Shown one piece after another: positions 42,703-62,843 of a stretch of 64,000 bases of DNA. The DNA comes from Haloferula rosea (lineage in GTDB: Bacteria; Verrucomicrobiota; Verrucomicrobiia; Verrucomicrobiales; Akkermansiaceae). Below the pieces are notes generated by a model. It searched no databases. It worked only from the letters and a program-made list of their open reading frames with translations, and had not been told where the DNA came from. The position numbers and the translations under genes were made by a program. The stretch is taken from contig NZ_JAENII010000007.1 in the NCBI RefSeq assembly GCF_016595525.1, positions 124,001 through 188,000 on the forward strand, written 5' to 3'. How positions within the stretch are numbered: position 1 is the first letter of the stretch; the number at the start of each line of letters is the position of its first letter.

Positions 42703-43911
42703 ATGCGCGCCTCACGCCGATACACCACCGGGTTTCTGGTAGCGGTCGTATGCGCCACTGTAGTTGCGGCGGCGATCAATACCTGGGTCGACCCACTTCG
42801 CCTCACCGCTCAACCATGGGCTGACCCGGAGTTCGACCCCTATCGCGAGATTTCCTCGCAGATCCGGTCCGGAAAGGCCGGCATGCTGCGCCAGGCCGGA
42901 CCGATCGATGTGGCCTTCATCGGTTCCTCACGCATCGCCAACGGCTTCGACCCCTCCCTTGAGCAGTGGGGAGACCGGAAGGTGCTGAACCTCGGATGCA
43001 GCGGCGGGTTCCTCTTCGAGTCCGTCGCCATCGCCCAATACCTGCTCCGGCACGACCCACCGGAACTCATCCTCATGGGCATCGACCCCGGTGACCTGAC
43101 GAGCTCCGTCGACACCCGCCCACTCGGAGATTTCTACAGCTCCCCCTTCAACCCGGATGGGGATGCCCTGGATCGCGAGATCCGCTACTGGATCGGCATC
43201 TCGACACTCGAAGAATCCCTCGAGACGCTTGAGCGCAAGCGGCTCGAACGTCCAGCCACCTATACCCCCGAAGGCCTGCGGAAACGAGGCCTCGGCCGGG
43301 GACGAGGCGGCCACCGTCAGCTCGATTTCATCCGTTCGAATCTAGCAGGTGAAGCCTTTCTCGCCGACGACTCGCCCACCGCCAAAGTGGTGAATCCACC
43401 GAAAATTGAAGCCCTGCGGGAGCTTCTTTCGGCGGTCAGAGAGAGCCCGACCCGCCTCGTCCTTTTCCTGCAACCCCGCCATGCCCTCCTTGGATCCAGC
43501 TCGGACGGGATCGAGGAGCCGATCTGTCTCTATCAGGCGGAGCGTGAGGCGCTCGTCGCACTCGTGGGTGAAGCCAACGCCATCGAGTCTGTGGGGCCGG
43601 AGATCGACTACTGGGAGTTCCTCGACTTCCACCCGATCAATACCGAACCGCTGCCACTCGATGAAGGCGAGCCGATGAAATACTGGACGGATCTCGATCA
43701 CTTCACCCTCCAGATCGGCAACGCCATGCAGGCACGCATGATGGGCTGGCCGGTGCAGCCCCCCATCGCCGCCGACTACGGTGCGCGAGTGACGGAAGAG
43801 TCCCTCCCAGCGAGGATCGAGCAGATCAAGCATGACTCGGTGGAATACCTGACCGGATCCGGTGCAAGGGATCTGGAATGGAAGGAGAACATGGCAAGCG
43901 AGACGCCCTGA
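42703..43911 (+). CDS. Membrane-anchored SGNH-like protein, pair 1
   Basis: The 402-residue protein has one N-terminal membrane segment (FLVAVVCATVVAAAI) and an extracytoplasmic SGNH-like domain. VAFIGSSRIANGFDP carries the predicted nucleophile (GSS, residues 74-76), and D-x-x-H near residue 333 (DLDHFTLQIGNAMQ) supplies the acid and base. This resembles AlgX/AlgJ-type proteins that transfer an acyl group supplied through an MBOAT membrane protein. The matching MBOAT gene begins 6 bp downstream. Paralogues are at 47085 and 60102. I chose the ATG at 42703; an upstream TTG is unlikely. The acyl donor and polymer are unknown. Confidence 0.72.
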   Translation: MRASRRYTTGFLVAVVCATVVAAAINTWVDPLRLTAQPWADPEFDPYREISSQIRSGKAGMLRQAGPIDVAFIGSSRIANGFDPSLEQWGDRKVLNLGCSGGFLFESVAIAQYLLRHDPPELILMGIDPGDLTSSVDTRPLGDFYSSPFNPDGDALDREIRYWIGISTLEESLETLERKRLERPATYTPEGLRKRGLGRGRGGHRQLDFIRSNLAGEAFLADDSPTAKVVNPPKIEALRELLSAVRESPTRLVLFLQPRHALLGSSSDGIEEPICLYQAEREALVALVGEANAIESVGPEIDYWEFLDFHPINTEPLPLDEGEPMKYWTDLDHFTLQIGNAMQARMMGWPVQPPIAADYGARVTEESLPARIEQIKHDSVEYLTGSGARDLEWKENMASETP

Positions 43912-43917
43912 AGCCGG

Positions 43918-45444
43918 ATGATCTTCAACTCCTACCCCTATCTGTTCCTCTTCCTTCCGATCGCATTGATCGGATTCCAGTTGTTGCGCGGCGCTCCCTA
44001 CCGCGTCGCCATCGGCTGGCTCGTGGCGATGAGCTTCCTCTACTACGCATGGTGGCGACCCGCGGACCTCTGGGTGATCGGTGCTTCCTGCGGCTTCAAC
44101 TTCCTCGTCGGCCGACAACTCTCCGGGAACGCTGCTGAAGCGCGGAAACAGGGGATTCTGGTCCTGGGTGTCGTCGCGAATCTCGCCCTGCTTGCGTGGT
44201 TCAAGTACGCGGGTCTGTTCGACAAAACCTTCGAGGCACTCACCGGCGAAGGCCTGAACATTCCGGACATCATCCTTCCTCTCGGAATCTCCTTCTTCAC
44301 CTTCCAACAGATCGCCTACCTCGTGGATGCACGCCGGGGTGAAACCAAGGAATACCACTTCACCGACTACCTGCTCTTCGTCTCGTTCTTCCCCCAACTG
44401 ATCGCCGGCCCCATCGTCCACCACAAGGAGATGCTGCCACAGTTCGAGCGCGGCCGTGGCCGCGGCCTGAACTCCCTGGATTTCTCCATCGGAGTCACCA
44501 TCATCGCGCTCGGCCTGTTCAAGAAGGTGGTCATCGCCGACTACCTGGCACGCAGTACCGGACCAATCTTCGATCTGGCTGCCGATGCCCAGTCGAGAGC
44601 TCCCACCATGGGCGAAGCATGGGCTGGCGCGCTCGGATACACGCTGCAGATCTACTTCGACTTTTCCGGCTATTCCGACATTGCGATCGGGTCGGCACGT
44701 CTCTTCGGCATCCGCCTTCCGCTGAACTTCGCTTCGCCCTACAAGGCCACGTCCATCGTCGAGTTCTGGCGACGCTGGCACATGACGCTTTCCCGTTTCC
44801 TCCGCGACTACCTCTACATTTCCCTCGGCGGCAATCGGAAGGGACCGGCCCGACGCTACGTCAACCTGATGCTCACGATGCTCCTCGGAGGGCTATGGCA
44901 TGGCGCTGGGTGGACCTTCATCCTCTGGGGCGGACTCCACGGACTCTACCTGTGCATCAACCACGGCTGGCACACGCTGCGCAGGAAATTCTCACTCCGC
45001 CAGATTCCCAAGCCGCTCGCGCTCGGACTCACCCTATTGGCTGTCGTCTTCGCCTGGGTTCCCTTCCGCTCCGGCAACTACGAGTTTGCGGCCAATGGTT
45101 CGACCACCGCCGCGCTCGAAACGGCAGGCCAGATGTTCCGCTCCATGCTGGGTCTGAACGGGTTCACCTTCTGGCCTCCCGATACCGCCATCGTGACGGC
45201 CAAGACACGGGCGGTCCGCCCGGTGATCGCAGGACTGCTGGTGGTGCTCCTGCTTCCCAATACCCAGCAGGTGATGCGGCGGTATGTTCCCGCCATCGGC
45301 CTGCCCAAGCCCTCGAGCGGGTGCCGGCGCCACTGGTGGCAATGGCGTCCCACCCTGCCCTGGCTCGGATTCACCCTCGCAATCCTCTATGCCGTGGGTC
45401 GGGAGTTCGATCAGGTCAGCGAATTCATTTACTTCCAGTTCTAG
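43918..45444 (+). CDS. MBOAT-family O-acyltransferase, pair 1
   Basis: The 508-residue polytopic protein begins MIFNSYPYLFLFLPIALIGF and carries AlgI/PatA/DltB-type MBOAT hallmarks: ISFFTFQQIAYLVDARRGE, FFPQLIAGPIVHHKEMLPQF, WRRWHMTLSRFLRDYLYI, and the invariant histidine in GLWHGAGWTF (H328). It is predicted to carry acyl groups across the inner membrane for O-acylation of a polysaccharide by the SGNH partner encoded 6 bp upstream. A closely similar 508-residue paralogue with the histidine at the same position lies at 61317-62843. Confidence 0.93.
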   Translation: MIFNSYPYLFLFLPIALIGFQLLRGAPYRVAIGWLVAMSFLYYAWWRPADLWVIGASCGFNFLVGRQLSGNAAEARKQGILVLGVVANLALLAWFKYAGLFDKTFEALTGEGLNIPDIILPLGISFFTFQQIAYLVDARRGETKEYHFTDYLLFVSFFPQLIAGPIVHHKEMLPQFERGRGRGLNSLDFSIGVTIIALGLFKKVVIADYLARSTGPIFDLAADAQSRAPTMGEAWAGALGYTLQIYFDFSGYSDIAIGSARLFGIRLPLNFASPYKATSIVEFWRRWHMTLSRFLRDYLYISLGGNRKGPARRYVNLMLTMLLGGLWHGAGWTFILWGGLHGLYLCINHGWHTLRRKFSLRQIPKPLALGLTLLAVVFAWVPFRSGNYEFAANGSTTAALETAGQMFRSMLGLNGFTFWPPDTAIVTAKTRAVRPVIAGLLVVLLLPNTQQVMRRYVPAIGLPKPSSGCRRHWWQWRPTLPWLGFTLAILYAVGREFDQVSEFIYFQF

Positions 45445-45530
45445 GCTCGCACCCCCTGCCCAATCGGGACGGAATGAGCGTTGCCAGTGCCCGCGCAGCC
45501 CCCTAAATACCTCCTGCGCCTCGGATACGG

Positions 45531-47081
45531 ATGATTTTCAATTCCTACACCTTCCTGCTTCTCTTCCTTCCGCTCACACTGCTGGGCTTCTACATGGTGG
45601 GATCGCGCAGCCTCCGCGGCGGATTCTCATGGCTCGTCGTGATGAGCCTGCTCTACTACGGATGGTGGAATCCGAACCCGGACCAGCCATGGTCACCGTG
45701 GTGGCTCGCCCTGATCCTCGGCTCATCGATTGGAAACTATTTGTTCGGGCGGTTCATCTCGGGCCATCAGGCCAGTCGGCCCGGCAAGATGGCGCTGGTC
45801 CTCGGCGTGACGGCCAACCTCGGCGTGCTCGGCTACTTCAAATACGCCGGACTTTTCACCAAAACGCTGGAAGCCCTCACCGGCAGTGGAATGTCGCTTC
45901 CCGACGTCATCCTCCCCCTCGGTATCTCCTTCTTCACCTTCCAGCAGGTCGCCTATCTCGTCGATGCCTGGCGGGGGGAAACCAAGGAATACAACTTCGT
46001 CGACTATCTCCTCTTCGTCACCTTCTTCCCCCAACTGATCGCCGGCCCGATCGTGCACCACAAGGAGATGCTGCCCCAGTTCCAGAAGGGACGGCACAAC
46101 TCGCACCGCTGGGTCAATTTTTCCACCGGCCTCACCATCCTGCTTGCCGGCCTGTTCAAGAAGGTCGTCCTCGCCGACAATTTCGCGCCCATCGCCACCC
46201 GACTGTTCGGCATGGCTACGACGGGTGAGCGGGACCTGACCATGGGAGAGGCCTGGGCCGCTTCCACGAGCTACGCCCTCCAGATCTACTTCGATTTCTC
46301 CGGTTACTCCGACATGGCCATCGGTGCGGCCAGACTGTTCGGCATTCGACTGCCATTGAATTTCCACTCACCCTACAAAGCCACCTCAGTGGTCGACTTC
46401 TGGCGACGCTGGCACATGACCCTGTCGCGATTCCTCCGCGACTACCTCTACATCACCCTTGGTGGGAACCGCTGTGGAAAGGTCCGTCGCTACACCAACC
46501 TCCTCATCACGATGGCGCTGGGCGGATTGTGGCACGGCGCCGGTTGGACCTTCTTGCTCTGGGGACTGCTCCACGGAGCCTACCTGTGCATCAATCACGC
46601 TTGGTTTGCCCTACGCAAGGCGATGAGTTGGCCCGCCCTGCCAAAGCCGCTCGCGATCCTCCTCACCTTCGTGGCCGTTCTCGTCGCTTGGGTGCCCTTC
46701 CGGGCCGGCAGCTTCGAATTGGGACCCGACGGATCCACCGCCAGGGCCTTGGAAGCCACTCGTTCCATCCTCAGCTCCATGTTCGGGCTCAATGGCTTTG
46801 AACTCTGGCCCGACCGAAGCGCCATGGCCGTGAAGGACCGCCATGCATTCCGCGCCGTCATGTGCGTGCTCCTCGTCTGGTGCCTGCCGAATACCCAGCA
46901 ATGGATGCGCCGCTACCAACCCGGTCTCGGGCTTGATCGGCTCCCCGGCGGTCAACTGGGTCCACGCCGTTGGTGGCAATGGCGCCCGACCGGCCCATGG
47001 GCCACCTTCTCGATCCTCCTGCTGATGGGAACGATCTACCAATTCGACAAGCTCAGCGAGTTCATCTATTTTCAATTCTGA
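45531..47081 (+). CDS. MBOAT-family O-acyltransferase, pair 2
   Basis: The 516-residue MBOAT begins MIFNSYTFLLLFLPLTLLGF and has ISFFTFQQVAYLVDAWRGE, FFPQLIAGPIVHHKEMLPQF, WRRWHMTLSRFLRDYLYI and GLWHGAGWTF with the invariant His at 335. An 8-residue insertion near residue 50 (NPDQPWSPWW) separates it from the other two copies. In this pair the MBOAT gene comes first and the SGNH gene second, with only 3 bp between them. It follows pair 1 by 86 bp and may share its transcript. Confidence 0.92.
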   Translation: MIFNSYTFLLLFLPLTLLGFYMVGSRSLRGGFSWLVVMSLLYYGWWNPNPDQPWSPWWLALILGSSIGNYLFGRFISGHQASRPGKMALVLGVTANLGVLGYFKYAGLFTKTLEALTGSGMSLPDVILPLGISFFTFQQVAYLVDAWRGETKEYNFVDYLLFVTFFPQLIAGPIVHHKEMLPQFQKGRHNSHRWVNFSTGLTILLAGLFKKVVLADNFAPIATRLFGMATTGERDLTMGEAWAASTSYALQIYFDFSGYSDMAIGAARLFGIRLPLNFHSPYKATSVVDFWRRWHMTLSRFLRDYLYITLGGNRCGKVRRYTNLLITMALGGLWHGAGWTFLLWGLLHGAYLCINHAWFALRKAMSWPALPKPLAILLTFVAVLVAWVPFRAGSFELGPDGSTARALEATRSILSSMFGLNGFELWPDRSAMAVKDRHAFRAVMCVLLVWCLPNTQQWMRRYQPGLGLDRLPGGQLGPRRWWQWRPTGPWATFSILLLMGTIYQFDKLSEFIYFQF

Positions 47082-47084
47082 TTC

Positions 47085-48290
47085 ATGCTCGGGAGTTCTC
47101 AACAACCCTACAGACGTTACGTCCGGTCCGTCGTCGGCTTCTTCGCCTTCGCCGTTACGCTTTTCGCGGCGGTGAATACGTGGATCAATCCCTTGTGGGT
47201 CACGCCGGCCCCCTGGACTGACGAAGGCTTCGCCGAATGGCGCCCGATCTACCGTCAGCAGCGGACCGCCAAGGCCGGCCTCGTCCGTTCCGAGTCCTGG
47301 GACGCAGCCTTCTTCGGCTCATCCCGGATCGATATTGCCATGGATCCCGCGCTCCCGGAGTGGGGCGATGAAAAGGCGGTCAACCTCGCGGTCAGTGCGG
47401 GGACACTTCCCGAAACGTCCGGCATCCTCCACTACACGATCCAGAATGATCCCCTCCAGCTCGCCGTCGTGGGCATCGACCTGGGGGACATGCTTCACGG
47501 TGGTTCAGGCATGCGGAACACCGGCTACATGGAGTCGCCATTCAACGAGAAGGGCGACGCCTTCGAGCGGGAACTCCGCTACGTCGTGGGCATCTCCTCA
47601 TTCGAGGCATCTTTCCGGGCCATCACCAACCGGATCAACAAACGCCCGCCCGAATACACCATTCAGGGCCACCGACTCCGACATCAGGAGAACTACGACG
47701 TCGCCCAGGTCATCGACCGCGATTCCATCCCTCATGCCATGCGTGTCATCCGCGGGCGTCGTACCGGGATCAGCCCGAATCCGTGGAAGATGGAGTGTCT
47801 CCAACGCATCCTCGACGATACCAAGGCCGCGAATTGCAAGCTGGTCGTCGTCCTCCCGCCCAACCACGCCACCTACCTGGGCGTCTACTACTATCTCGAC
47901 GATGTGGATCCCACCCATCTGATGGACCGCGAGCTGATCCTGAAAATGCTGAAGGATTCCAATGAGGCGCATCCCGATGCCCCCGCAGCGACGGTCTGGG
48001 ACTTCAATGACTTCCACGCCCTGAACTGCGAGAAATTCACGCCGCCGGGCGAAAGGATGAAGTGGTGGCTTGATGGCACCCACGCCCGCAAGGCCCTCGG
48101 CGACGTGATGCTTGCGCGCATCATGGACTGGCCCATTGAAGGACCAGGCAAAGACTACGGAGTCGAGCTGACGCTCGATGGCCTGCAGTCCCGATCGGAG
48201 CAACTCTTCGCCGGCTACGAGCGGTTCAAGACCGAGAGTCCGGACTTGTGGAACTGGATGGTCGAAAGCATCAGCCACTATCAGGAGTAG
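47085..48290 (+). CDS. Membrane-anchored SGNH-like protein, pair 2
   Basis: The 401-residue protein has an N-terminal membrane segment (SVVGFFAFAVTLFAAV) and NTWINPLWVT like its paralogues. The nucleophile motif AAFFGSSRIDIAMDP (GSS residues 78-80) and D-x-x-H in DGTHARKALGDVM near residue 333 are present. It is the most divergent of the three SGNH proteins (VSAGTLPETSG replaces the GCSGG loop), so its acceptor may differ. It is encoded 3 bp after its MBOAT partner and ends near a convergent methyltransferase gene. Confidence 0.72.
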   Translation: MLGSSQQPYRRYVRSVVGFFAFAVTLFAAVNTWINPLWVTPAPWTDEGFAEWRPIYRQQRTAKAGLVRSESWDAAFFGSSRIDIAMDPALPEWGDEKAVNLAVSAGTLPETSGILHYTIQNDPLQLAVVGIDLGDMLHGGSGMRNTGYMESPFNEKGDAFERELRYVVGISSFEASFRAITNRINKRPPEYTIQGHRLRHQENYDVAQVIDRDSIPHAMRVIRGRRTGISPNPWKMECLQRILDDTKAANCKLVVVLPPNHATYLGVYYYLDDVDPTHLMDRELILKMLKDSNEAHPDAPAATVWDFNDFHALNCEKFTPPGERMKWWLDGTHARKALGDVMLARIMDWPIEGPGKDYGVELTLDGLQSRSEQLFAGYERFKTESPDLWNWMVESISHYQE

Positions 48291-48311
48291 CGACGCCCAC
48301 CGCACCCATCC

Positions 48312-48911
48312 TCACCCCTTCGGAGCGATCCGGATGCAATCCATGTCGACCTCGAGCGTTAGATCGCGACCCTGCTCCTCGACCCATTTCTCGATGTCCG
48401 CGACCGCCGGGTAGGCATCGCCGCCGACTTGGGTGAAACACCGTGCGTCGTCGATCAGAATGACGAATGGCTGCTTCATCCCGGCGAAGATCGCCTTCAG
48501 TTCGGCCCACACCGGAGCTGCGAGCTCTCCCTTGGCGGTATCTCCTCCCGAGTAGTGGCCGTCGAGCCAGAAGAGCGTGGGAGCATCCAGTTCAGCGACG
48601 ATCTCAGGCATCCGCTCTCCGCTGTCGCCCTGAAGCAGCTTCACCTTGTCCACGCCTTGGAAGCGCTTCACCGCCTCGTGATAGAACTTTTCGGCCAATT
48701 CAACCGAGTAGATCCGCTCGAAATGCGGCCGCATCGCTTCGACCGTGTCCCCCTTGAAGGTTCCGGTTTCCACGAAAATCCTCAGACCGAACCGTTCGGC
48801 ATACTCCAAGTGCATGGCGCGCTTCGCCAAGGGTGGCGGCGGGAGCGGGCGACCATCCTCAATCCACTTCTTGTATCTGCGACGCTCCTTGAGCTGTTTC
48901 AACCAAGACAT
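48312..48911 (-). CDS. Class I SAM-dependent methyltransferase-like protein
   Basis: The 199-residue protein has the SAM-binding loop RIFVETGTFKGDTVEAM (E-T-G-T-x-x-G), an acidic YSVELAEKFY, KVKLLQGDSGERMPEI and a TLFWLDGHYSGGDTAKG strand with D and H, as in sugar-modifying O-methyltransferases of surface-glycan loci. I chose ATG 48911; the longer frame to 49097 overlaps the divergent fucosyltransferase-like gene. Basic residues dominate the first 20 positions. It probably methylates a sugar or acts on a nucleotide sugar; the substrate is not determinable. Confidence 0.72.
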   Translation of the reverse strand: MSWLKQLKERRRYKKWIEDGRPLPPPPLAKRAMHLEYAERFGLRIFVETGTFKGDTVEAMRPHFERIYSVELAEKFYHEAVKRFQGVDKVKLLQGDSGERMPEIVAELDAPTLFWLDGHYSGGDTAKGELAAPVWAELKAIFAGMKQPFVILIDDARCFTQVGGDAYPAVADIEKWVEEQGRDLTLEVDMDCIRIAPKG

Positions 48912-48957: not shown

Positions 48958-49887
48958 ATGGAGAATCGGACTTGCGACCCCATGGCGCTGCCGTCAATCT
49001 CGGTCGTGTTTGGAAGGAACCCAAAGAGGGCATACGTGACATGCCGGGATCGGAGGGATGGAGGCGGTGCCCAGGTGTGCGCCCACCTCTCCACCATCCT
49101 CTACGCGGCCCACCACCGCGCGACCTACGCCCACACCCCCTTCCAGGAAATCGCCCATCGTCCCAGCGACCTTTCCCCATCGGAATGGGTCAAAACCTGG
49201 GAGGAGTTCTTCTCCATCGGCCACGGAGAGACGCAAGCCGAGGACATCGGCGACCTGAAGGAGGTGCCCTTGCCGAAACCTCATCGAAAAAGTCCGAGGA
49301 AGGGCGCTCTGAATGTGGTCCACCACTGCCATAAGGTCACCAACCAGCTCGTCGATGCATGGGACGCACTCCGACCATCGATGCGGACAAAGTATTTCCA
49401 TCACGCCAAGCCGGCCACACCACTTGACGACAAATCAAAGCTGAATCTGGCGGTTCATGTCCGCCGTGGTGACGTGACCTCGAGTGGCACCTTCTCCGAG
49501 CGCTTCACCGAGGGAACCACGATCCACTCGCACGTGCACCGCATCGTCCAACTGCTGGGGCCCGACCACTGTCAAGTCCACCTGTTCTCCCAGGCCGGGC
49601 AGAACCTGTCTGAATTTGATTCACTTGAACCCCAATGGCATCTGGATCTGGATCCCCTGACCACCATCCACGCCATGGTATCCGCCGACGTCCTATTCGC
49701 GGCCAAGAGTTGCTTCAGCTGGCTCGCCGGCCTGATTGGTAACGGTCAGGTGATTCAAGACGACTTCTGGCATCCATCGATGCCGGATTGGATCAATTTT
49801 TCCGAGCTTCCCGAGCTGCCCGACGATCAACTCCGGCTGCGGCTCCAGCCTTCACTGTTAGCCCCAACCGTCGCCTCCAGGTCATGA
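48958..49887 (+). CDS. Fucosyltransferase-like glycosyltransferase
   Basis: The 309-residue protein contains LNLAVHVRRGDVTSSGTF, matching the H-x-R-R-G-D motif shared by alpha-1,2-, alpha-1,6- and protein-O-fucosyltransferases (GT11/GT23/GT65). An N-terminal RDGGGAQVCAHLSTILYA is similar in place to the G-x-x-G-N-Q region of those enzymes, and a C-terminal MVSADVLFAAKSCFSWLAGL is typical. It probably binds a GDP-sugar, by family analogy. The start at 48958 (or an ATG at 48982) follows from the divergent methyltransferase start at 48911. Its TGA overlaps the next gene's ATG. Confidence 0.65.
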   Translation: MENRTCDPMALPSISVVFGRNPKRAYVTCRDRRDGGGAQVCAHLSTILYAAHHRATYAHTPFQEIAHRPSDLSPSEWVKTWEEFFSIGHGETQAEDIGDLKEVPLPKPHRKSPRKGALNVVHHCHKVTNQLVDAWDALRPSMRTKYFHHAKPATPLDDKSKLNLAVHVRRGDVTSSGTFSERFTEGTTIHSHVHRIVQLLGPDHCQVHLFSQAGQNLSEFDSLEPQWHLDLDPLTTIHAMVSADVLFAAKSCFSWLAGLIGNGQVIQDDFWHPSMPDWINFSELPELPDDQLRLRLQPSLLAPTVASRS

Positions 49888-50549
49888 AGCAGTGGCTGAG
49901 ACAATGGAGGCACCAACGACGGTTCGCCCCCTACGGAAAACCGGAGTTCGTCCACCCCTCCGCACGCATCAGCCGGAACAGCAGTCTCGAAGGGCCGGTC
50001 TGCGTTGGACCGGGTTGCCGCGTGAAACAATCGTCCATCGGAGGCTACAGCTATCTGGCCTACGACATCCGCATCCACGATGGCACAATCGGACGCTACT
50101 GCAGCATCGGACCGGAAGTGATCATCGGAGGGCTCGGCAAGCACCCTACCGACCATTTTTCCACCTCTCCACTGACCTACTCTCCCAGCCATCCGCTGAG
50201 CGAACGACTGGGCCACTCGAAGACCGACCTCGGCTTTGAGGAATCCGCTCCTGTCACCATTGGCCATGACGTCTGGATTGGAGCACGAGCCATCATCGTG
50301 GATGGCGTCACCATCGGCCACGGCGCCATCATCGGAGCCAACACCGTAGTCGCCAAGGACGTCCCCCCCTATGCGGTGTTTTACGGCAGCCCCCCCAAGG
50401 CCCGCCGCTTCCGCTTTCCTCAGGAAACCATCGCGAGGCTGCTGGAGTCGGAGTGGTGGAACAAAGCTCCTGACCAGATCAACGACGACGACCTCCTCGC
50501 CCTCGTACAAGAACATCACCCATCCAACCCGGAGAACCCAGCCTCATGA
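49884..50549 (+). CDS. Left-handed beta-helix acetyltransferase (CatB-related)
   Basis: The 221-residue protein has hexapeptide-repeat rungs ([72 protein letters not shown]) and ends [17 protein letters not shown], as in the xenobiotic or CatB-related O-acetyltransferase group. The catalytic His is probably in the [11 protein letters not shown] loop. It is predicted to transfer acetyl from acetyl-CoA to a sugar, possibly the product of the adjacent dTDP-sugar genes. Both ends are ATGA overlaps with neighbours, so it is translated with them. Confidence 0.88.
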
Positions 50550-51643
50550 GTGCATCATCCACACAACCCCAGAGAGTGCTCGTGACTGGCGGCGCCGGCT
50601 TCATCGGCAGCGCCCTGATCCATCACCTCCTCCGGACGACCGCTTACGAGGTCTTGAATGTCGATTCTCTGACCTACGCCGGAAACCCCGAGTCGCTGGA
50701 AGCCGTCAAGGATGACCCCCGCTATCGATTCAAGCAGATCGACATTACCGATCGGGCAGCGCTGACCTCCGCCTTCGCCGAATTTCAACCCACCGGAGTG
50801 TTCCACCTTGCGGCCGAGTCCCATGTCGACCGTTCCATCGAAGGATCCCGCGCCTTCATCGACACCAATGTCATCGGCACCCACACGCTGCTCGAGATCA
50901 CCCGGGCTTACCTTGCGGAAGCCGATGAATCCGTCCGGAAGCCATTCCGTCTGCTCCACATCTCCACGGATGAAGTCTACGGTGACCTGTCGGAAACCGA
51001 TCCGGCCTTCACCGAACAGAACCGCTACGATCCCAGTTCCCCCTATTCGGCGTCCAAGGCGGCTTCCGACCACCTCGTCCGCGCGTGGGCGAGGACCTAC
51101 GGGCTCCCCGTTCTCATCACCAATTGCTCGAACAACTATGGTCCCCGTCAGTTCCCCGAGAAACTGATCCCCCACATGATCCTCAACGCCATCGCAGGCA
51201 AGCCCCTGCCGGTCTACGGGGACGGGAGACAGATCCGGGACTGGCTCCATGTCGAAGACCACGCCGACGCCCTTCTCACCGTCTTCGAGAAAGGACGAAC
51301 GGGAGAGACCTATAATGTCGGCGGCAACCACGAGATGAGGAATCTCGCCCTCGTGGAAATGCTCTGCGACCTCCTTGACCAGCATCCCCAGGCTGTCGCA
51401 AATCGAAGTGGAGAGAGTTTCCGCGAGTTGATCACCTTCGTAACCGACCGTCCCGGACACGACCGCCGCTACGCCATCAACCTCAGCAAGATCCACGCCG
51501 AACTCGGCTGGTCGCCCGCCCACACCTTTGAGGAAGGGCTGCGCGAAACGATCGACTGGTACCTCACCCATACCGGCTGGTGGCAGCGTATCCTCTCCGG
51601 TGAATACCAGCTCGAACGACTCGGAACCCAACCCAGATCATGA
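50546..51643 (+). CDS. rfbB: dTDP-glucose 4,6-dehydratase
   Basis: The 365-residue extended-SDR enzyme converts dTDP-glucose to dTDP-4-keto-6-deoxyglucose. Signatures are [18 protein letters not shown] (NAD site), [26 protein letters not shown] (with the catalytic D and E) and [15 protein letters not shown] (Y-x3-K), plus [16 protein letters not shown]. The start overlaps the acetyltransferase stop and the stop overlaps the rfbA start, both ATGA. No rmlC or rmlD is nearby. Confidence 0.96.
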
Positions 51644-52512
51644 AAGGAATCATTCTCGCCGGCGGATCAGGAACCCGCCTCCATCCGGTCACCAAGGTGC
51701 TCTCGAAGCAGTTGATGCCGGTCTATGACAAGCCGATGATCTACTATCCGCTTTCCGTGCTCATGTTGGCCGGGATTCGGGAAGTCCTGATCATATCCAC
51801 ACCCCGGGACCTCCCGCTCTTCAAGGAACTGCTCGGTGATGGCAAGCAACTCGGATGCGACTTCGAGTACGCCGAGCAACCCGAACCCAAAGGGCTCGCC
51901 CAGGCATTCACGATTGGTGCCGACTTCATCGGCGATGACTCTGTCGCGCTGATTCTCGGCGACAACATCTTCTATGGCTCCGGCTTCGGCCAGCTCATCC
52001 GCGAGAATGCGAATCCCGAGGGTGCCGTCATTTTCGCGGCTCCCGTTCACGACCCCGAGCGCTACGGAGTGGTCGAGTTCGACAAGGACCAGAACGTCCT
52101 CTCGATCGAAGAGAAGCCGATCAAGGCGAAGTCACACTTTGCCGTTCCCGGGCTGTATTTCTACAACAACGAAGTGGTGGAAATCGCGCGGGCCGTCGAG
52201 CCATCGGAACGCGGAGAGCTCGAGATCACCTCAATCAACCAGGCCTACCTCCAGAGGCAACAACTCAAGGTCGGCATCTTCAACCGCGGTATCGCTTGGC
52301 TCGACACGGGTACCTTCCAGTCCCTCAACGAGGCCTCAACCTTCGTCCGTGTGATCGAGGAACGTCAAGGGACCAAGATCGGATGCATCGAGGAAACCGC
52401 CTTCTACTCGGGGTTCATCAACGCCGACCAACTCGCAAGTCTGGCCGCCGAGTATTCCAACAGCACCTACGGCGACTACCTGCGCCAGCTGGTCCGGGAC
52501 TCCCGGAGCTAG
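51640..52512 (+). CDS. rfbA: Glucose-1-phosphate thymidylyltransferase
   Basis: The 290-residue enzyme makes dTDP-glucose from glucose-1-phosphate and dTTP. It starts [20 protein letters not shown] with the nucleotidyltransferase signature, followed by [35 protein letters not shown] (metal site) and [19 protein letters not shown]. Length matches RmlA (about 290). It is coupled by ATGA to rfbB. Its glucose-1-phosphate could come from the phosphohexomutase at 13802. Confidence 0.96.
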
Positions 52513-52565
52513 ACGACCCCGACCCGCTCCGGGTTGCGACATCCTCCTTTCCTGCGCACACCTTC

Positions 52566-53663
52566 ATGGCCACCGCCCCCATTCAAGTCACCACTCCCTT
52601 TCTCCCGGAGTTCCGTGCCTATACCGACCTCCTCCAGGGCGTATGGGAACGAAACCACCTCACCAATCAGGGACCCTTGGTTCGGGAACTGGAATCCAGA
52701 ATTCCTACCCACCTCGGACTCGAGCGCCCCGTGCTCTGTGTGGCAAACGGTGGGCTCGGCCTGCAGCTGCTTCTCAAGGCCATGGATGTGCGCGGAACGG
52801 TGATCACAACGCCGTTTTCCTACGTGGCGACCTCGTCCTGTCCTGCTTGGGAAGGCCTTGACGTTCGCTTTGCAGACATCGAGTCCGACCATCTCACGCT
52901 CGATCCAGCCGCGGTCGAGGCTTCGATCGATTCATCCAGCGAAGCAATCATCGCCACTCATGTGTTCGGCAATCCATGCGCTGTCGACTCACTCGCACGC
53001 ATCGCGGACAAGCATGGTCTGGCACTGATCTACGACGCTGCACACGCATGGGGAGTGCGCCACCAGGGAAAGAGCATCCTCTCGTTTGGTCATGCTTCCA
53101 TGGTCAGCACGCACGCGACCAAGCTGTTCCACACGGTCGAAGGCGGCTTCGTTACGGCCGCCGCGCCGGATGTCATGGACAGGGTCGAGTGGATGCGTCG
53201 ATTCGGCCACAAGGATAACGACAGCTTTCATGGCATCGGCATCAACGCAAAGATGTCTGAGATGCATGCAGCCATGGGCCTTGCCGTGATGGACCGGCTC
53301 GGAGAAATCAGCGGCCGCAGGGAGAAGATTTGCCAAACCTACAAGGAGGCACTCGCAAACCAGTCGGAGATCCGGCCCGCATTCGCCCTCAGAAGCGACA
53401 CGGAGTGGAACCACTCCTACTTCCCGGTTCTATTTGAGTCGGAAAAAAACCTCCTTCGAGCCGTGCAGCGAATGGGTCAAGATGACATCCACCCGCGGCG
53501 CTACTTCTACCCTTGCCTCAATCAGAGTTTCTCGACAGACGACCGCGACGGGTGCCCGGTTTCATCCGACATCAGTCGTCGAATCCTGTGCTTGCCACTG
53601 TCCCACGCTCTGACAGACGCGGAATTGGCCAGAGTGATCAGAGCGCTCGGACTTGCCGCCTGA
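52566..53663 (+). CDS. DegT/DnrJ/EryC1/StrS-family sugar aminotransferase
   Basis: The 365-residue PLP enzyme starts MATAPIQVTTPFLPEF. It shows NHLTNQGPLVRELE, TTPFSYVATSSCPAWEGLDV, the PLP-phosphate region LIYDAAHAWGVRHQG, and the lysine in STHATKLFHTVEGGFVT, where K binds PLP. It is predicted to transaminate a keto-sugar nucleotide, most simply the dTDP-4-keto-6-deoxyglucose made by RfbA and RfbB, giving a 4-amino-4,6-dideoxy sugar; a 3-amino product would need an isomerase not seen here. It begins 53 bp after rfbA and ends 20 bp before the convergent FkbM gene. Confidence 0.9.
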   Translation: MATAPIQVTTPFLPEFRAYTDLLQGVWERNHLTNQGPLVRELESRIPTHLGLERPVLCVANGGLGLQLLLKAMDVRGTVITTPFSYVATSSCPAWEGLDVRFADIESDHLTLDPAAVEASIDSSSEAIIATHVFGNPCAVDSLARIADKHGLALIYDAAHAWGVRHQGKSILSFGHASMVSTHATKLFHTVEGGFVTAAAPDVMDRVEWMRRFGHKDNDSFHGIGINAKMSEMHAAMGLAVMDRLGEISGRREKICQTYKEALANQSEIRPAFALRSDTEWNHSYFPVLFESEKNLLRAVQRMGQDDIHPRRYFYPCLNQSFSTDDRDGCPVSSDISRRILCLPLSHALTDAELARVIRALGLAA

Positions 53664-56900: not shown

Positions 56901-56919
56901 AACGATCTCCTGGGGCTTC

Positions 56920-58068
56920 TCAGGCGAGGTCATAGAGGTCACCGGAAAGCAATTGCTGGTATTGAGCATGCTGCTCGTCCGCCGACGATGCACGTAAAAA
57001 GAAAATCGCGGCTCGCCCTGCCGGACTCGGCTGGAGGAAATCGCCGGAGGAAGCCAGCGGCACCATCAGCTTGAGTTCGACCGGATGCCGGAATTCAAGC
57101 CCCCACAAGGACATACCCCCGGGCGAGGTGACCGTGTGGCGGATGATCCATTCCTCCGCCGCTGACGAATCCGCAGCCACGGGCAGGCACCCAAGAAAGC
57201 CAGACGCATAGTTCGCGGCATACGGCTGACCGTTAGAAAATTCGATCAAGAGCGAATAGAGATCACCGGGACAGCGGCGGGTCACCTCGATGATCCAGTA
57301 ACGATCCCCGCTGACGATGAACTGGGAATGGACCAGACCATCCACCAGTTGCAGCGATGCGGCGAGTGTCTCCACGTTCTTCCGCAGGGCCGCGCCCATG
57401 CTTTCGGGAAAATCCGGATCCACGCGACTCGTATCCACCGCGAACGCATTGGCGGTGCAGTCCTCCTGCACAAAGACATCCGTGACCACCTGACCGGCCA
57501 CCACAAACGCCGAGTGACTGAAGAGTTGGCCCTCAACAAACTCCTCAATGATCGAACCGGCAGTCGGAGAGGCCACATCGGCGGCTGCCACGGCCTTGGC
57601 AAGCTTTTCGGGAGTCACGTCCCGGACAACCTCAATCCCCTTGCCGCTGAAGGAGTCGACCGGCTTCACGATCACGGCATCAGCCACCTCGGCCTGCTCA
57701 CGCGTGAGCACTGCCGGCACGGGCAGCCCGATTCCACGGGCGACCTCCCGAAATTCATGCTTCTCATTGATCACCCGAGTGGTCTCCGGCGAATCGAGCC
57801 CCTTGAAACGCCCGTCGTTGATTTCCGCACACACCTTGTAGGACAAGTCGGTGCAGCCGGGCACCAGAAAATCGAAGCCCATGGAGTCCACGAACCTGCT
57901 CAAGGCCTCCGTATCCGAGTAGTCGAGTTGCTCGTAGTGCTCCGCAAGCTTCGCCAGCGGCTCATTCGGCTTCCCGCCCACGACCCAAACTTCATGCCCG
58001 AGCGCACACAGCTCACGGTAGACCGGATAGGTGGCGCGGTTGGTATCAACTAGAAGCGTGCGGGGCAT
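56920..58068 (-). CDS. ATP-grasp domain protein
   Basis: The 382-residue protein begins with a Rossmann-like pre-ATP-grasp domain (TLLVDTNRATYPVYRELCAL, EVWVVGGKPNEPL, DFLVPGCTDLSYKVC). An ATP-grasp fold of the carbamoyl-phosphate-synthase-like class follows, with ADAVIVKPVDSFSGKGIEVV (lysine and glycine-rich loop), SIIEEFVEGQLFSHSAFVV, and YWIIEVTRRCPGDLYSLLIE (metal site E...R). Such enzymes ligate an amino or carboxyl group through an acyl phosphate. In glycan loci they may add amino acids to uronic acids or aminosugars. It heads the four-gene minus-strand operon to 53684. I chose ATG 58068. Confidence 0.85.
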   Translation of the reverse strand: MPRTLLVDTNRATYPVYRELCALGHEVWVVGGKPNEPLAKLAEHYEQLDYSDTEALSRFVDSMGFDFLVPGCTDLSYKVCAEINDGRFKGLDSPETTRVINEKHEFREVARGIGLPVPAVLTREQAEVADAVIVKPVDSFSGKGIEVVRDVTPEKLAKAVAAADVASPTAGSIIEEFVEGQLFSHSAFVVAGQVVTDVFVQEDCTANAFAVDTSRVDPDFPESMGAALRKNVETLAASLQLVDGLVHSQFIVSGDRYWIIEVTRRCPGDLYSLLIEFSNGQPYAANYASGFLGCLPVAADSSAAEEWIIRHTVTSPGGMSLWGLEFRHPVELKLMVPLASSGDFLQPSPAGRAAIFFLRASSADEQHAQYQQLLSGDLYDLA

Positions 58069-58457
58069 GGAAGAAGATGGCCGGTTCGGCCTTGACGCCC
58101 CGGTGGCAGGACGATTCCCGGCTCCGAAACGCCGGAGATTTCTTGGCACCCTGTCCGCTACTCTGACAAGGGTAAAACGGGCTCAAACCAGCCGCTCCCA
58201 CGCAGATCCCGCTATCCCCGGCGGGTCTCCGGCTTGCAGCACTGCCCACCCCTCCAGACCACAACCGGGCCCGTATAGGAGAGCGTGCCGCTGACACACC
58301 TTCGCTGCCCGTCATCTCTGACCCGCCGAAGCCATGCCCGCCTATCCGCTTTACTCTCGCCGGGAATTTGCAAACGGTCGGCCCCATTCCGAAGCGGATC
58401 CGAGCGACCTGAAAGCCGCACCGCCCCCTTTCCAAGATCCTGAATCATCGACCCTTC
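58069..58457. other. Divergent intergenic region in the glycan island
   Basis: About 390 bp lie between the ATP-grasp gene and the GNT-I-like gene. Short frames exist but none is convincing as a gene. The region probably holds promoters for both operons. I could not identify a reliable -35/-10 pair or a hairpin. Confidence 0.5.
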
Positions 58458-59360
58458 ATGGCCCTCGCTCCGATCTTCATGACCACCTACCGGAGGCTCG
58501 ATCACCTCAAGAAGTCGCTGGAATCGCTCGCACGGAATCCACTGGCCTCAGAGAGCACGATCTACCTCACCTCGGATGGTCCGCTACCGGAACATAAGAA
58601 GGAGGTGTTCGCCGTCCGGAATTACCTCGAGAATCTGGAGGGTTTCGGCCGTGTGGAGCTCCACTTTTTCGACCAGAACCACCGGGGACAACTTTGGGAT
58701 CTGCGCAGGGAAGTCAGCGAGAAGCACGGCCGCTTTATCTTTCTGGAGGAAGACTGTGTGACAGCTCCCGGATTCCTCGGTTTTCTCAATGCCTCACTGG
58801 TTCGATGGAAGGATGATCCGGCGGTGTTCGGGATTGTGGCCTTCACCCCACCGCTACCGGAATTGGCGGGCCCGGAAATGAGGGCATTCCGCGTCCCTTG
58901 CGCCAATGTTTGGGGTTTCGGCACCTGGGAGAGGAATGACAGGATCATCCGCAAAACGATGCCCAAGAGCGAGGTATCCAAGACGCTGCGGTCCCATAAG
59001 ATGCGCGCAAAGGCCTTCGAATCGCTGGGAGCTCCGTTTCTCGGCATGCTCGGCAAGGCCGCGAGAGGCCAGTATTTCGGTTATGATATCATGGCCAACT
59101 ACGAGATCATCCAGCGGGACATGGTCTGCATCTACCCGAGCCAATCACTCATCAGGAACACCGGCTTCGACGGAACGGGCGAACACTGCGGCACCAGCGA
59201 CAACTACGATGTCCAGCTCTACGACCAGCCCCGCGAACGCTGGGACGACCTCAAGGAAGTGACAAGCAAGGAGGTGAATCGAGCCTTCGGGCGTTTCCAT
59301 GGCACCAGCGCCAGAAATCGTTGGCGGTTCTACTCGCGGTGGCTGCGTGGAAAACTCTAG
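58458..59360 (+). CDS. GT-A glycosyltransferase, GNT-I-like
   Basis: The 300-residue protein has a GT-A start, APIFMTTYRRLDHLKKSLES, followed by TIYLTSDGPLPEHKKEVFAV, a FFDQNHRGQLWDL segment, and FIFLEEDCVTAPGFLGFLNA, where EED takes the place of the D-x-D/E-D-D metal motif. The order and the metal-site surroundings resemble GNT-I (GT13) as much as ordinary GT2. CANVWGFGTWER and NTGFDGTGEHCGTSDNYD follow. It probably adds a sugar to a surface glycan from a nucleotide-sugar donor. It is the first of four plus-strand genes ending at 62843, 69 bp before the sulfotransferase. Confidence 0.72.
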   Translation: MALAPIFMTTYRRLDHLKKSLESLARNPLASESTIYLTSDGPLPEHKKEVFAVRNYLENLEGFGRVELHFFDQNHRGQLWDLRREVSEKHGRFIFLEEDCVTAPGFLGFLNASLVRWKDDPAVFGIVAFTPPLPELAGPEMRAFRVPCANVWGFGTWERNDRIIRKTMPKSEVSKTLRSHKMRAKAFESLGAPFLGMLGKAARGQYFGYDIMANYEIIQRDMVCIYPSQSLIRNTGFDGTGEHCGTSDNYDVQLYDQPRERWDDLKEVTSKEVNRAFGRFHGTSARNRWRFYSRWLRGKL

Positions 59361-59429
59361 CCGAAGACCAGCTCCCCCACCCGGGCTTTCCCATTGACAG
59401 TCTGAAACGCCGGGAAGCAAGTTCGGCGG

Positions 59430-60080
59430 GTGAAATCAGTGTTGAGGCGAGTCTTTCGCAAACGCCAGAAGGTGTTCGTTGTCGGTCAAAACAAGACCGG
59501 AACCACCACCATGGCCATGGCGCTCCGGGCACTCGGCTACAAGGTGGGCGATCAAGTCGCTGCCGAGCTCCTCTTCGACGACTGGAACGAGGGCCGGTTC
59601 GACCGGATCATTGATCTCTGTAGGGAAGCCGACGCATTTCAAGACATCCCCTTCTCCCTGGACCGGACCTTTGTCGAAATGGACAAGGCGTTTCCCGGAT
59701 CAAAATTCGTGCTCACGGTCAGAGACAGTCCCGAGGACTGGTTCGAGTCCCTGACTCGCTTCCACACCAAGATCATGGGTTGCGATGGCCTCCCAACGGC
59801 GAAGGACATGGCCGATTTCAATTATCGTGCCGAAGGCTGGTTTCTCAAGGCTCATCTCGCCATCCTCAAGATCAACGAAGAGCAGATCTATGATCGCGAC
59901 ATCTACCTCGCACACTACAACGCCTACAACCAGAAGGTCATCGATTACTTCAGGGATCGTCCCGACGACTTCATGCTCCTGAACGTGGGCGATGATGACG
60001 CAGCGGAACGCCTGTGCAATTTCCTCGGCAGGCCCGGGAAGCTGCAGGCAATGCCTCACGAAAACCAGAGCAAGCAGTAG
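59430..60080 (+). CDS. Sulfotransferase-like protein, second type
   Basis: The 216-residue protein starts at GTG with KVFVVGQNKTGTTTMAMALR, a sulfotransferase 5' PAPS loop of the K-T-G-T-T-(S/T)-L/M type, and KFVLTVRDSPEDWFESLTRF as the 3'-phosphate region (VRD-x-x-x-D-W, typical of the sulfotransferase family 4 group). A C-terminal PDDFMLLNVGDDDAAERLCNFLG ends it. It is not closely similar to the sulfotransferase at 41656. It probably sulfates a glycan, though the family also contains proteins of unknown activity. It sits between the GNT-I-like gene and SGNH/MBOAT pair 3. Confidence 0.78.
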   Translation: MKSVLRRVFRKRQKVFVVGQNKTGTTTMAMALRALGYKVGDQVAAELLFDDWNEGRFDRIIDLCREADAFQDIPFSLDRTFVEMDKAFPGSKFVLTVRDSPEDWFESLTRFHTKIMGCDGLPTAKDMADFNYRAEGWFLKAHLAILKINEEQIYDRDIYLAHYNAYNQKVIDYFRDRPDDFMLLNVGDDDAAERLCNFLGRPGKLQAMPHENQSKQ

Positions 60081-60101
60081 TTCCTTTCCGTCCCATCCGC
60101 C

Positions 60102-61310
60102 ATGCCTTCCGTTCGACGACACACTTGGGTGCTGCTGGGCGGAATTGTGGCCTTCATGCTGGCCACCGCGTTCATCAACAGCTGGGTCAACCCACTCCGG
60201 GTCATCCCCTCACCCTGGAGCGATCCGAGCTTCGAACCTTACCGGGACATCAGCTCGCAGATCAGGACGGGGAAGGCAGGGCTGGTGCGCAGCCACGATC
60301 AGGTCGACGTCGCATTTCTCGGATCATCCCGTGTCGAGAATGGCTTCGATCCGGAAATGCAGGAATGGAATAACCTGGAAGTGCTGAACCTTGGCTGCAG
60401 CGGAGGTTACATCTACGAGACCCGTGGTATTGCTGATTACCTGCTTGAACGAAACAGCCCCTCCATCCTGTTTTGCGGCATCGACCCAGGCGACCTCTCC
60501 CGCCCCATGGACAGCCGGGACAAGAGCGACTTCTATGCCTCCCCCTTTGCCCGGAACGGCGACACCATCGATCGCGAACTCCGCTACCTGCTCGGTGTTT
60601 CCTCGCTCGAGAACTCCCTTGAAACCATCAACCGCCGAGCGAAGGACCGTCGATCACCCTACACGCCGCGCGGACTCCGAGGCGTGGACGAGGGGATCGA
60701 CCAAGGTAGCCAGCTTGGATTCATCCGCCGTCAACTGATCGGCAATGCATTCAGTCAGGAAGGCACGACGGCGAACACCAAGATCGTCCCCGACAAGATC
60801 GAGGCGCTTCGCGATCTCATGATCAAAGCACGGACTTCAGGCGCCCGGCTCATCATCTTCTTCCACCCCCAGCATGCGATCATGCTCGCAAGCCTCGAAG
60901 ACCAGGATGACCCGCCGGTCTTCTTCGCCAATGAACGCGCGGTGCTGATTGATCTGGTCGATCAGGTGAATCGGGAAGAGTCGGCGGGGCCGCCGGTCGA
61001 GCTCTGGGACTTCTTCGATTTCCACCCCATCAACTGCGAAGCCCTGCCCCTCGGAGACACGTCGCGAATGACATTCTGGGACGATCTCGGACACTTCTCG
61101 GTCCCCGTAGGAAACGCCATGCAGGCGAGAATGATGGGGTGGCCGGTCGAACTCGAGGGCGCCGAAGACTACGGCACTCCGCTGAGCAAGGAAACCCTCC
61201 CACAAAGAGAGGCGGAAGTAAGGGAAGGATATCGGGCCTACCTCGAAGGTCCACGACGTGGCGACGTCCTCTGGAAGGAAGAACTGATCAACCGCAAGTC
61301 GGGACCCTGA
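60102..61310 (+). CDS. Membrane-anchored SGNH-like protein, pair 3
   Basis: The 402-residue protein has a membrane anchor (VLLGGIVAFMLATAFI), then INSWVNPLRVIPSPW, the nucleophile motif VAFLGSSRVENGFDP (GSS residues 74-76), LGCSGGYIYETRG, GIDPGD and D-x-x-H in DLGHFSVPVGNAMQ near residue 331. It is clearly closer to the pair 1 protein (42703) than to pair 2. It is predicted to be the periplasmic O-acyl transferase or esterase that works with the MBOAT encoded 6 bp downstream. It starts 21 bp after the sulfotransferase stop, so sulfation and acylation genes share an operon. Confidence 0.74.
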   Translation: MPSVRRHTWVLLGGIVAFMLATAFINSWVNPLRVIPSPWSDPSFEPYRDISSQIRTGKAGLVRSHDQVDVAFLGSSRVENGFDPEMQEWNNLEVLNLGCSGGYIYETRGIADYLLERNSPSILFCGIDPGDLSRPMDSRDKSDFYASPFARNGDTIDRELRYLLGVSSLENSLETINRRAKDRRSPYTPRGLRGVDEGIDQGSQLGFIRRQLIGNAFSQEGTTANTKIVPDKIEALRDLMIKARTSGARLIIFFHPQHAIMLASLEDQDDPPVFFANERAVLIDLVDQVNREESAGPPVELWDFFDFHPINCEALPLGDTSRMTFWDDLGHFSVPVGNAMQARMMGWPVELEGAEDYGTPLSKETLPQREAEVREGYRAYLEGPRRGDVLWKEELINRKSGP

Positions 61311-61316
61311 GATGCG

Positions 61317-62843
61317 ATGATCTTCAATTCCTATCTCTACCTGCTCCTCTTCCTCCCCGTCGTCGTGCTTGGATTCCAAGCCCTTCGAACGGCTCCATTC
61401 CGGGTATCCATCGGCTTCCTCGTGCTGATGAGTTTCATCTACTACGCATGGTGGAGACCGGAGGACCTCTGGGTGATCGGTGCATCGTGCTTGGTGAATT
61501 TCTTCCTTGGGCGCGGGATCGCCCGAGGCCGGGCCAAACCTTCGGGCTACGGTTTGCTCGTCGTGGGCCTCGTGATCAATCTGGGGCTTCTAGGATGGTT
61601 CAAGTATGCCGGACTGTTCGACAAGACCCTGCTCGCTCTCACCGGCAGTGGACTGGGACTCCCCGACATCGTTCTTCCGCTGGGCATTTCCTTCTTCACC
61701 TTCCAACAGGTCGCCTACCTCGTGGACTCATGGCGCGGTGAGGCGGAGGAATACCACATCACGGACTACCTGCTCTTCGTCACGTTCTTCCCTCAGTTGA
61801 TCGCCGGCCCCATCGTCCACCACAAGGAGATGTTGCCCCAGTTCCAGCAACAGAAGGGTCGCGGACTTGAAGCAATCAATCTTTCCATCGGCGTCACGAT
61901 CATCGCCATCGGACTCTTCAAGAAGGTGGTGCTGGCCGACAACTTCGCGCGGGTCGCCGGCCCCATCTTCGATCTCGCCGCAGCCGAGGGAGCCCGTGAC
62001 CTGACGATCGGCGAGGCGTGGGCTGGCACCCTTGCCTACACCCTGCAGATCTACTTCGATTTCTCAGGCTACTCGGACATTGCGATCGGGTCCGCCCGCC
62101 TCTTCGGCATCCGCCTCCCGCTCAACTTCGCCTCGCCTTACAAGGCGACTTCAGTGGTCGACTTCTGGCGTCGCTGGCACATGACTCTTTCGCGGTTCCT
62201 TCGCGACTACCTCTACATCCCCCTCGGCGGCAGTCGGTGCGGGAAAACGCGTCGGTACATCAACCTGATGCTCACGATGCTCCTTGGCGGCTTCTGGCAC
62301 GGCGCTGGATGGACCTTCATCCTCTGGGGCCTGCTCCATGGCAGCTACCTCTGTGCGAACCACGCATGGTTCCACGTTCGCAAGAAACTGGATTGGAAAC
62401 CGATGCCCAAACCCATCGCGATCGGGCTCACCTTCTTTGCCGTCGCGCTCGCCTGGATTCCCTTCCGTTCGGGCAACTACGAGCTCGGCCCCGAGGGGTC
62501 CACCACTGCGGCACTCTCGTCGACGTGGTCGATTCTCGAGACCATGTTCGGAGCTCAAGGATTCACCTTCTGGCCACCCGACGCCGCGGTGGTCGTCAAG
62601 GACTCCAAGGCCATCCGGCCGATCCTTGCCGGACTCATCGTCGTGTTCCTGCTTCCCAGCACCCAGGAGTTCATGCGCCGATACACTCCCGCCATCGGGC
62701 TCAGAAAACCCTCCAAGGATGGGCCACGACGCAGCTGGCAATGGCGCCCGACGGTGCCGTGGGCCCTTTTCAGCCTCGCGATGCTCTACCTCGTCGGTCG
62801 AGAGTTCGACCAACTCAGCGAGTTCATCTACTTCCAGTTCTAA
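61317..62843 (+). CDS. MBOAT-family O-acyltransferase, pair 3
   Basis: The 508-residue MBOAT starts MIFNSYLYLLLFLPVVVLGF and carries ISFFTFQQVAYLVDSWRGE, FFPQLIAGPIVHHKEMLPQF, WRRWHMTLSRFLRDYLYI and GFWHGAGWTF with the invariant His at 328. Length and histidine position equal those of pair 1, so these two look like recent duplicates. Its stop (62841-62843) overlaps the stop of the convergent mnmA gene by three bases. It is the last gene of the island. Confidence 0.93.
   Translation: MIFNSYLYLLLFLPVVVLGFQALRTAPFRVSIGFLVLMSFIYYAWWRPEDLWVIGASCLVNFFLGRGIARGRAKPSGYGLLVVGLVINLGLLGWFKYAGLFDKTLLALTGSGLGLPDIVLPLGISFFTFQQVAYLVDSWRGEAEEYHITDYLLFVTFFPQLIAGPIVHHKEMLPQFQQQKGRGLEAINLSIGVTIIAIGLFKKVVLADNFARVAGPIFDLAAAEGARDLTIGEAWAGTLAYTLQIYFDFSGYSDIAIGSARLFGIRLPLNFASPYKATSVVDFWRRWHMTLSRFLRDYLYIPLGGSRCGKTRRYINLMLTMLLGGFWHGAGWTFILWGLLHGSYLCANHAWFHVRKKLDWKPMPKPIAIGLTFFAVALAWIPFRSGNYELGPEGSTTAALSSTWSILETMFGAQGFTFWPPDAAVVVKDSKAIRPILAGLIVVFLLPSTQEFMRRYTPAIGLRKPSKDGPRRSWQWRPTVPWALFSLAMLYLVGREFDQLSEFIYFQF

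Follow-up and report, generated by a model that had tools for sequence, protein, structure and literature searches.

Why should a single 20-kb island carry three pairs of SGNH and MBOAT acyltransferase genes, with one of the pairs in inverted gene order? The question is raised by the 64,000-nt stretch of Haloferula rosea DNA analyzed here (the window). The original prediction of three pairs held: six open frames lie at the predicted positions, all intact and all on the plus strand (Table 1). Pairs 1 and 3 are equal in length, as had been noted, and pair 2 departs from them, as also predicted, in gene order and in the loop of block II, which reads NLGCSGG in S1 and S3 vs. NLAVSAG in S2. At the protein level, S1 and S3 are 47% identical and S2 is 34% identical to each of them; M1 and M3 are 71% identical, and M2 is 60% identical to M1 and 63% to M3. 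The S1 frame has an additional upstream TTG at 42667, and the stop of M3 overlaps the end of the mnmA-like gene by 4 bases. The enzymes are ordinary by kind; their form, multiplied and mosaic, is unusual. The joint explanation that we consider probable combines an acyl relay, inheritance of the genes as a quartet, stable SGNH classes and mosaic MBOATs.

Table 1 Features of the acyltransferase island, in window coordinates
Feature	Position	Strand	Remark
S1, SGNH acyltransferase class A	42703..43911	+	402 aa
M1, MBOAT class A, C-terminal FIYFQF	43918..45444	+	508 aa
M1 part, residues about 93-143, apparently homogenised core stretch	44194..44346	+	apparent gene conversion
M1 part, residues about 168-218, follows SGNH class	44419..44571	+	
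M1 C-terminal part, residues about 418-508, follows SGNH class	45169..45441	+	last helix and FIYFQF
M2, MBOAT class B, C-terminal FIYFQF	45531..47081	+	516 aa
S2, SGNH acyltransferase class B, block II NLAVSAG	47085..48290	+	401 aa
Hexapeptide-repeat acyltransferase	49788..50549	+	family match
rmlB, rmlA and DegT-family aminotransferase, between pairs	50546..53663	+	dTDP-amino-deoxysugar route
Sulfotransferase, between pairs	59430-60080		
S3, SGNH acyltransferase class A	60102..61310	+	402 aa
M3, MBOAT class A, C-terminal FIYFQF	61317..62843	+	508 aa
mnmA-like gene	62840..63997	-	beside pair 3; relative G082 has a whole S-M-M-S quartet there

For the comparison, 46 regions were fetched from 29 relatives, which together with the own genome gave 80 SGNHs and 69 MBOATs. 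At the family level, a match was present in 30 of the 260 genomes, the own genome included, and in 2 of the 16 genera as tallied; at the order level, with a different profile and threshold, matches were found in 36 of 386 genomes and 4 of 50 genera as tallied. With the three-SGNH profile (two peptide patterns), scanning a single genome for each species returned 11 loci, all with Verrucomicrobia-type titles, including Haloferula sp. BvORR071, Haloferula luteola and Luteolibacter marinus; one locus is titled Akkermansia muciniphila, a title that may be wrong. Of the 16 same-genus relatives that gave a match, 9 share the SGNH-MBOAT-MBOAT-SGNH (S-M-M-S) quartet of the window (G082, G096, G093, G090, G086, G085, G089, G083 and G087); in the last three of these, a gap separates the first SGNH from the MBOAT that follows, of about 0.5 kb in G089, 1.2 kb in G083 and 0.9 kb in G087. 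G091 has the order M-M-S, three relatives (G080, G081 and G088) carry S-M and M-S in separate places, and G084, G092 and G095 show other gene orders; no match was obtained in G094 (61% complete), the seventeenth relative from the genus. The inverted order of pair 2 is thereby explained as one half of a widespread quartet, and we rejected the idea that the inverted pair is an anomaly.

The own genome contains a fourth pair on another contig (C22), in the order MBOAT-SGNH, which belongs to a further class, C. This class-C pair, always MBOAT-SGNH, was found in 15 of the 17 same-genus genomes with a match, the own genome included; the matches in G084 and G092 include none of class C, and in G086 and G095 the class-C pair shares one 20-kb stretch with the other pairs. 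The inherited unit would be a quartet, SGNH(A)-MBOAT-MBOAT-SGNH(B), plus an additional MBOAT-SGNH(C). Directly before the class-C MBOAT on C22 lies a second, GDSL-like frame (L002, 2644-3549, minus strand) with GDSN and D-x-x-H by eye and no Pfam match, which is possibly an esterase removing the same acyl groups. A fifth, divergent MBOAT on contig C69 has the FIYFQF tail and 42% identity to M1; the 282-aa protein encoded after it resembles an SGNH by eye and has no Pfam match. In the open-licence literature searched, we found no account of such arrays or of an MBOAT mosaic; the matches listed for MBOAT in Verrucomicrobi included no title on such acylation, those listed for MBOATs and gene conversion were not relevant, and the search for O-acetyltransferase in Haloferula found nothing.

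What is new here, judged from the sequences, is that the SGNHs fall into clean classes A, B and C while the MBOATs do not. The class trees comprise the same-genus rows assigned to A, B or C (44 of the 80 SGNHs and 45 of the 69 MBOATs), with the class of an MBOAT taken from its adjoining SGNH or, in G091, from its place; they omit five extra class-A SGNHs, G084, G092, G095_S2/M2 and the other genus. In an earlier MBOAT tree, 67 of the 69 rows were used, one fragment and the C69 protein being omitted. In the 44-row tree, each SGNH class forms one clade with a bootstrap of 100. By contrast, neither class A nor class C of the MBOATs was monophyletic in any of 200 bootstrap trees (0%; 45 rows); these two classes require two label changes each, and class B formed one group in 52% of the bootstrap trees.

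The discordance varies along the MBOAT. When the protein was divided into thirds, the class labels changed 9 times in the first third, 4 times in the second and 2 times, the minimum possible, in the last. The N-terminal 343 columns rejected the tree in which the classes are held together (p-AU 0.0019), whereas the last 172 columns gave a class tree as the best and rejected the core tree (p 5.5e-5). In 23 windows of 70 columns, two class changes were seen at M1 residues 133-242 and 373-500 and 3-14 elsewhere; the SGNH windows gave two changes in 11 of 11. With the MBOAT cut into four segments, whose borders are rough and were picked after viewing the 70-column windows, two segments rejected the class tree, residues 1-132 (p 2.3e-5) and residues 243-372 (p 0.0018), and the segments 133-242 and from 373 onward did not. 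A tree-free identity count, restricted to lineages I, II and III, gave the same picture: at columns 100-125, identity between classes within a genome is 57% vs. 41% within a class between lineages, and at columns 425-450 the values are 29% vs. 50%. These lineage groups were defined by repeated branching in the SGNH and MBOAT trees; G086 and G091 were placed within them for the window scan and outside them for the identity count. In M1 coordinates, residues about 93-143 form a stretch where cross-class likeness within a genome exceeds same-class likeness between lineages. Taken together, these results fit MBOATs that are mosaic, with a pump core homogenised among the paralogues of a genome, presumably by gene conversion, and two segments that stay matched to the SGNH.

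Could uneven conservation or convergence have produced the mosaic as an artefact of the trees, with no gene conversion at all? The whole-gene AU tests are weak: under the mixture model, class clades were not rejected for the MBOATs (p 0.101 for C and 0.095 for A), and under LG+G4 the p value was 0.039. Columns 250-350 are highly conserved, and windows there resolve poorly because of it; moreover, few independent swap events lie behind the mosaic signal. Fourfold sites, used as a control, gave a divided answer. At columns 100-175, the A-B comparison gave 0.65 within genomes vs. 0.53 between genomes, and the excess of same-genome paralogues was 0.08-0.12 in these columns and 0.04-0.05 in the last third. 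An excess was also present at the partner-following columns 175-250 (0.04-0.08) and at columns 250-343 (0.04-0.10, with B-C at 0.10), so that, being spread beyond the core, it supports gene conversion only in part. In the genome of the window, fourfold sites showed no clear excess either for M1-M2 (core 0.45, C-terminal part 0.39) or for M1-C22 (0.45 and 0.50), and no recent conversion is therefore visible there. Nevertheless, we consider an artefact unlikely for three reasons. First, the clearest stretch, columns 100-125, is variable and stands out by plain count. Second, the fourfold excess for A-B and A-C is greatest at columns 100-175. Third, site support clusters along the MBOAT with p 1e-4 in 20,000 order shuffles.

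The MBOATs and the clean SGNH classes also bear on whether the pairs are simply redundant, that is, copies acylating one acceptor whose number raises the dose only. The MBOATs, which are 60-71% identical and have FIYFQF in common, would suit such redundancy; the SGNHs argue against it, since classes A and B are only 34% identical, differ in their block II and III loops and remain separate clades across the genus, and a class-C pair is kept by nearly all same-genus genomes with a match. We therefore regard mere redundancy as improbable. Partner numbers are unequal as well: in the fetched regions of 30 genomes, SGNHs outnumber MBOATs in 10, equal them in 19 and are fewer in 1, counts that are limited by contig ends and by divergent MBOATs elsewhere. 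The whole genome of Haloferula luteola (G084) has five SGNHs and three MBOATs, including one divergent, and the fetched region of G091 has two adjoining MBOATs and one SGNH. A bolder reading, quite possible but offered tentatively, is a modular relay in which the core is exchanged among cassettes by gene conversion and a partner-specific MBOAT tail is co-inherited with the SGNH as the module that sets specificity; two or three MBOATs would serve five SGNHs in some relatives, giving a tunable acylation code on a surface glycan.

Several single loci are worth recording here. In H. luteola, four tandem SGNH genes are flanked by two MBOAT genes (L091), and in G087 a solitary class-A-like SGNH (L078) has no MBOAT of the same family in the 16 kb fetched. 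In the other genus (L085, L089 and L090), two SGNH classes each have their own MBOAT, and these MBOATs cluster in the tree; in G084 and G092 (L091 and L084), a single MBOAT precedes both SGNHs. Comparison of the two arrangements points to what looks like a second instance in which MBOATs were copied independently of the SGNHs.

The family assignments and the general mechanism that had been proposed are supported by fold, motifs and tail. M1, M2 and M3 match PF03062 with E-values of 2.8e-40, 8.2e-38 and 6.9e-39, at 131-139 bits vs. the curated cut-off of 27. The MBOAT matches DltB (6bug) both in sequence (E 5e-39) and in the fold of the M1 model (E 4.9e-10; pLDDT 78.7, with the last ten residues below 50). 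The candidate catalytic residues were likewise retained on alignment, as had been claimed: M1 histidines H288, H328 and H341 do not vary across the aligned rows (24 of 24), and the GSSR serine motif and D-x-x-H are identical in S1, S2 and S3. In the own genome and the relatives, D-x-x-H is present in 80 of 80 SGNHs and GSSR in 79 (GSSI in the other), and the FIYFQF tail shared by M1, M2 and M3 is found in 67 of 69 MBOATs, with FIYYQF in one and one cut by a contig end.

For the SGNHs, profile searches were silent: S1-S3 have no Pfam match (E up to 0.05) and no NCBIfam match (E up to 0.01), and the SGNH profile found no match among PDB sequences up to E 1. Their assignment comes from the motifs in all three and from the predicted fold of S1. 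The AlphaFold2 model of S1 (pLDDT 92.3, pTM 0.91) shows an SGNH fold with an N-terminal helix, residues 3-29, which we read as a membrane anchor. Foldseek gave five matches at E 0.001 or less, every one DltD; when the matches were re-examined, the first four rows were DltD (Z 11.7-12.9 over 245-259 residues), the best having Z 12.9 over 259 residues at 4.4 Å. Many other fold matches are esterases with Z 10 to 11.5, near the weaker DltD rows, and PatB (Z 10.7-11.2) lies amid them, which might suggest that the SGNHs strip what the MBOAT adds. That they are esterases rather than transferases is nevertheless very unlikely, because the longest-covering matches are the DltD transferases, the protein has an N-terminal helix, and its usual neighbor in the fetched regions is an MBOAT with a shuttle tail.

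As transferases, the SGNHs would complete a relay for which models exist. According to PMC12148441, the tyrosine of the C-terminal hexapeptide of PatA is auto-acetylated and donates to the PatB serine, PatB accepts O-acetylated FIYANF, and the authors extend the tyrosine-shuttle scheme to other MBOAT-SGNH pairs. Each pair of the island is likely to relay acyl groups across the membrane in the manner of PatA/PatB and DltB/DltX/DltD, and for this relay we infer the following chemistry, acyl group and acceptor. The MBOAT would draw on a cytoplasmic thioester, probably acyl-CoA, and load the acyl group onto the tyrosine of its own C-terminal FIYFQF; the GSSR serine of the partner SGNH would accept it from there and hand it on to a surface-glycan hydroxyl. 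Acyl-CoA is the probable donor because the MBOAT carries a fused shuttle hexapeptide and DltA was not found above cut-off: in the own genome (97.5% complete), eight AMP-ligase matches included none above cut-off, the best reaching 236 of 560 bits.

The known systems resemble these pairs to different degrees. The PatA/PatB systems of Campylobacter and Neisseria likewise have the hexapeptide fused to the C-terminus of the MBOAT and a separate SGNH, according to PMC12148441. However, the S1 fold covers DltD better than the catalytic-domain structure of PatB (Z 12.9 over 259 residues vs. 11.2 over 177), and here several paralogous pairs lie within a sugar-nucleotide island, so that peptidoglycan is not an obvious acceptor. 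In DltB/DltX/DltD, the proteins nearest to the MBOAT (DltB) and, in fold, to S1 (DltD) are found, but the shuttle motif here is fused to the MBOAT. An assignment to Dlt was rejected, as the DltB equivalog TIGR04091 scored 180.7-186.7 bits vs. a cut-off of 375 and DltA was lacking above cut-off. AlgI/AlgJ/AlgX and WssH/WssI also combine an MBOAT and an SGNH, acting on an exopolysaccharide (PMC12148441); in contrast, the SGNHs here are without a Pfam match, and a Pfam scan of 24 window proteins named none of them for alginate or cellulose synthesis.

The island itself points to a candidate acceptor. Between the pairs, rmlB and rmlA are above cut-off (TIGR01181 and TIGR01207), and the DegT aminotransferase has its best match to DesI, far under the cut-off of that family. 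Further genes there encode two FkbM methyltransferases, an oxidoreductase and an ATP-grasp protein, and a second sulfotransferase lies immediately upstream of pair 1 on the opposite strand. Three frames gave no family above cut-off; by eye, the frame at 48312 reads as a methyltransferase and those at 48745 and 58458 as glycosyltransferases. These sugar-nucleotide, methyl-, acyl- and sulfotransferase neighbors make a decorated surface glycan the likely acceptor, plausibly one containing the dTDP-amino-deoxysugar whose genes share the island with the pairs. No glycan polymerase or exporter was named among the 20 island proteins scanned. At 25.9-29.3 kb, a lipid A acyltransferase and a GT4 enzyme suggest LPS manufacture. 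Elsewhere in the window, 16451-24640 on the minus strand encodes a collagen-like, glycine-rich protein of 2729 aa with PF01391 in three stretches, in a region of mostly 65-71% GC (18-24 kb); its C-terminal end resembles an outer-membrane barrel by eye. That the three pairs act on separate acceptors or positions or with separate acyl groups is plausible, and SGNH classes that are distinct and stable across the genus fit separate acceptors. It is most likely the SGNH class that would set the acceptor.

As for the origin of pair 3, co-duplication with pair 1 is supported, since both of its proteins, S3 and M3, belong to this lineage's class-A group. They cluster with S1/M1 and with the sole class-A pairs of G082 and G096 (SH-aLRT 99), and M3 lies outside the group of M1, G082 and G096 (98/95; 45-row tree); pair 3 is thus a class-A duplicate, made perhaps before the split of the window species, G082 and G096. 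The gene order in G082 is rmlB, rmlA, DegT, GT, about 2 kb of unassigned frames, the quartet and mnmA facing the quartet. In the window, S3-M3 comes after the GT at 58458 and the sulfotransferase, mnmA follows immediately and the quartet is at the malQ end. The phylogenies of the SGNHs and MBOATs do not resemble those of unrelated imports. Separate horizontal imports, for which no supporting point was found, can be dismissed as extremely improbable given the even GC of the island (0.55-0.62), the nearest kin of all six proteins, which family-only trees place in the same-genus relatives G082 or G096, the rmlB, rmlA, DegT and GT neighbors in both these relatives and mnmA in G082, and the uniformly Verrucomicrobia-type titles of the 11 loci of the one-genome-per-species scan.

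To our knowledge, it is an open question by what means an MBOAT recognizes its partner SGNH, and whether the MBOAT or the SGNH determines the acceptor. The last MBOAT helix falls inside the C-terminal segment that follows the partner. In the published PatAB model (PMC12148441), the membrane helix of the SGNH protein lies against MBOAT helices 1 and 17; by analogy, docking of the SGNH would be the reason why these segments stay matched. The genomes appear to hold natural chimeras, with MBOAT segments that follow the SGNH and others that do not, and since the last helix is in a partner-following segment, docking becomes testable by short segment swaps. If a common pump core does serve distinct transferases, these bacteria would provide a natural test of what determines enzyme specificity.
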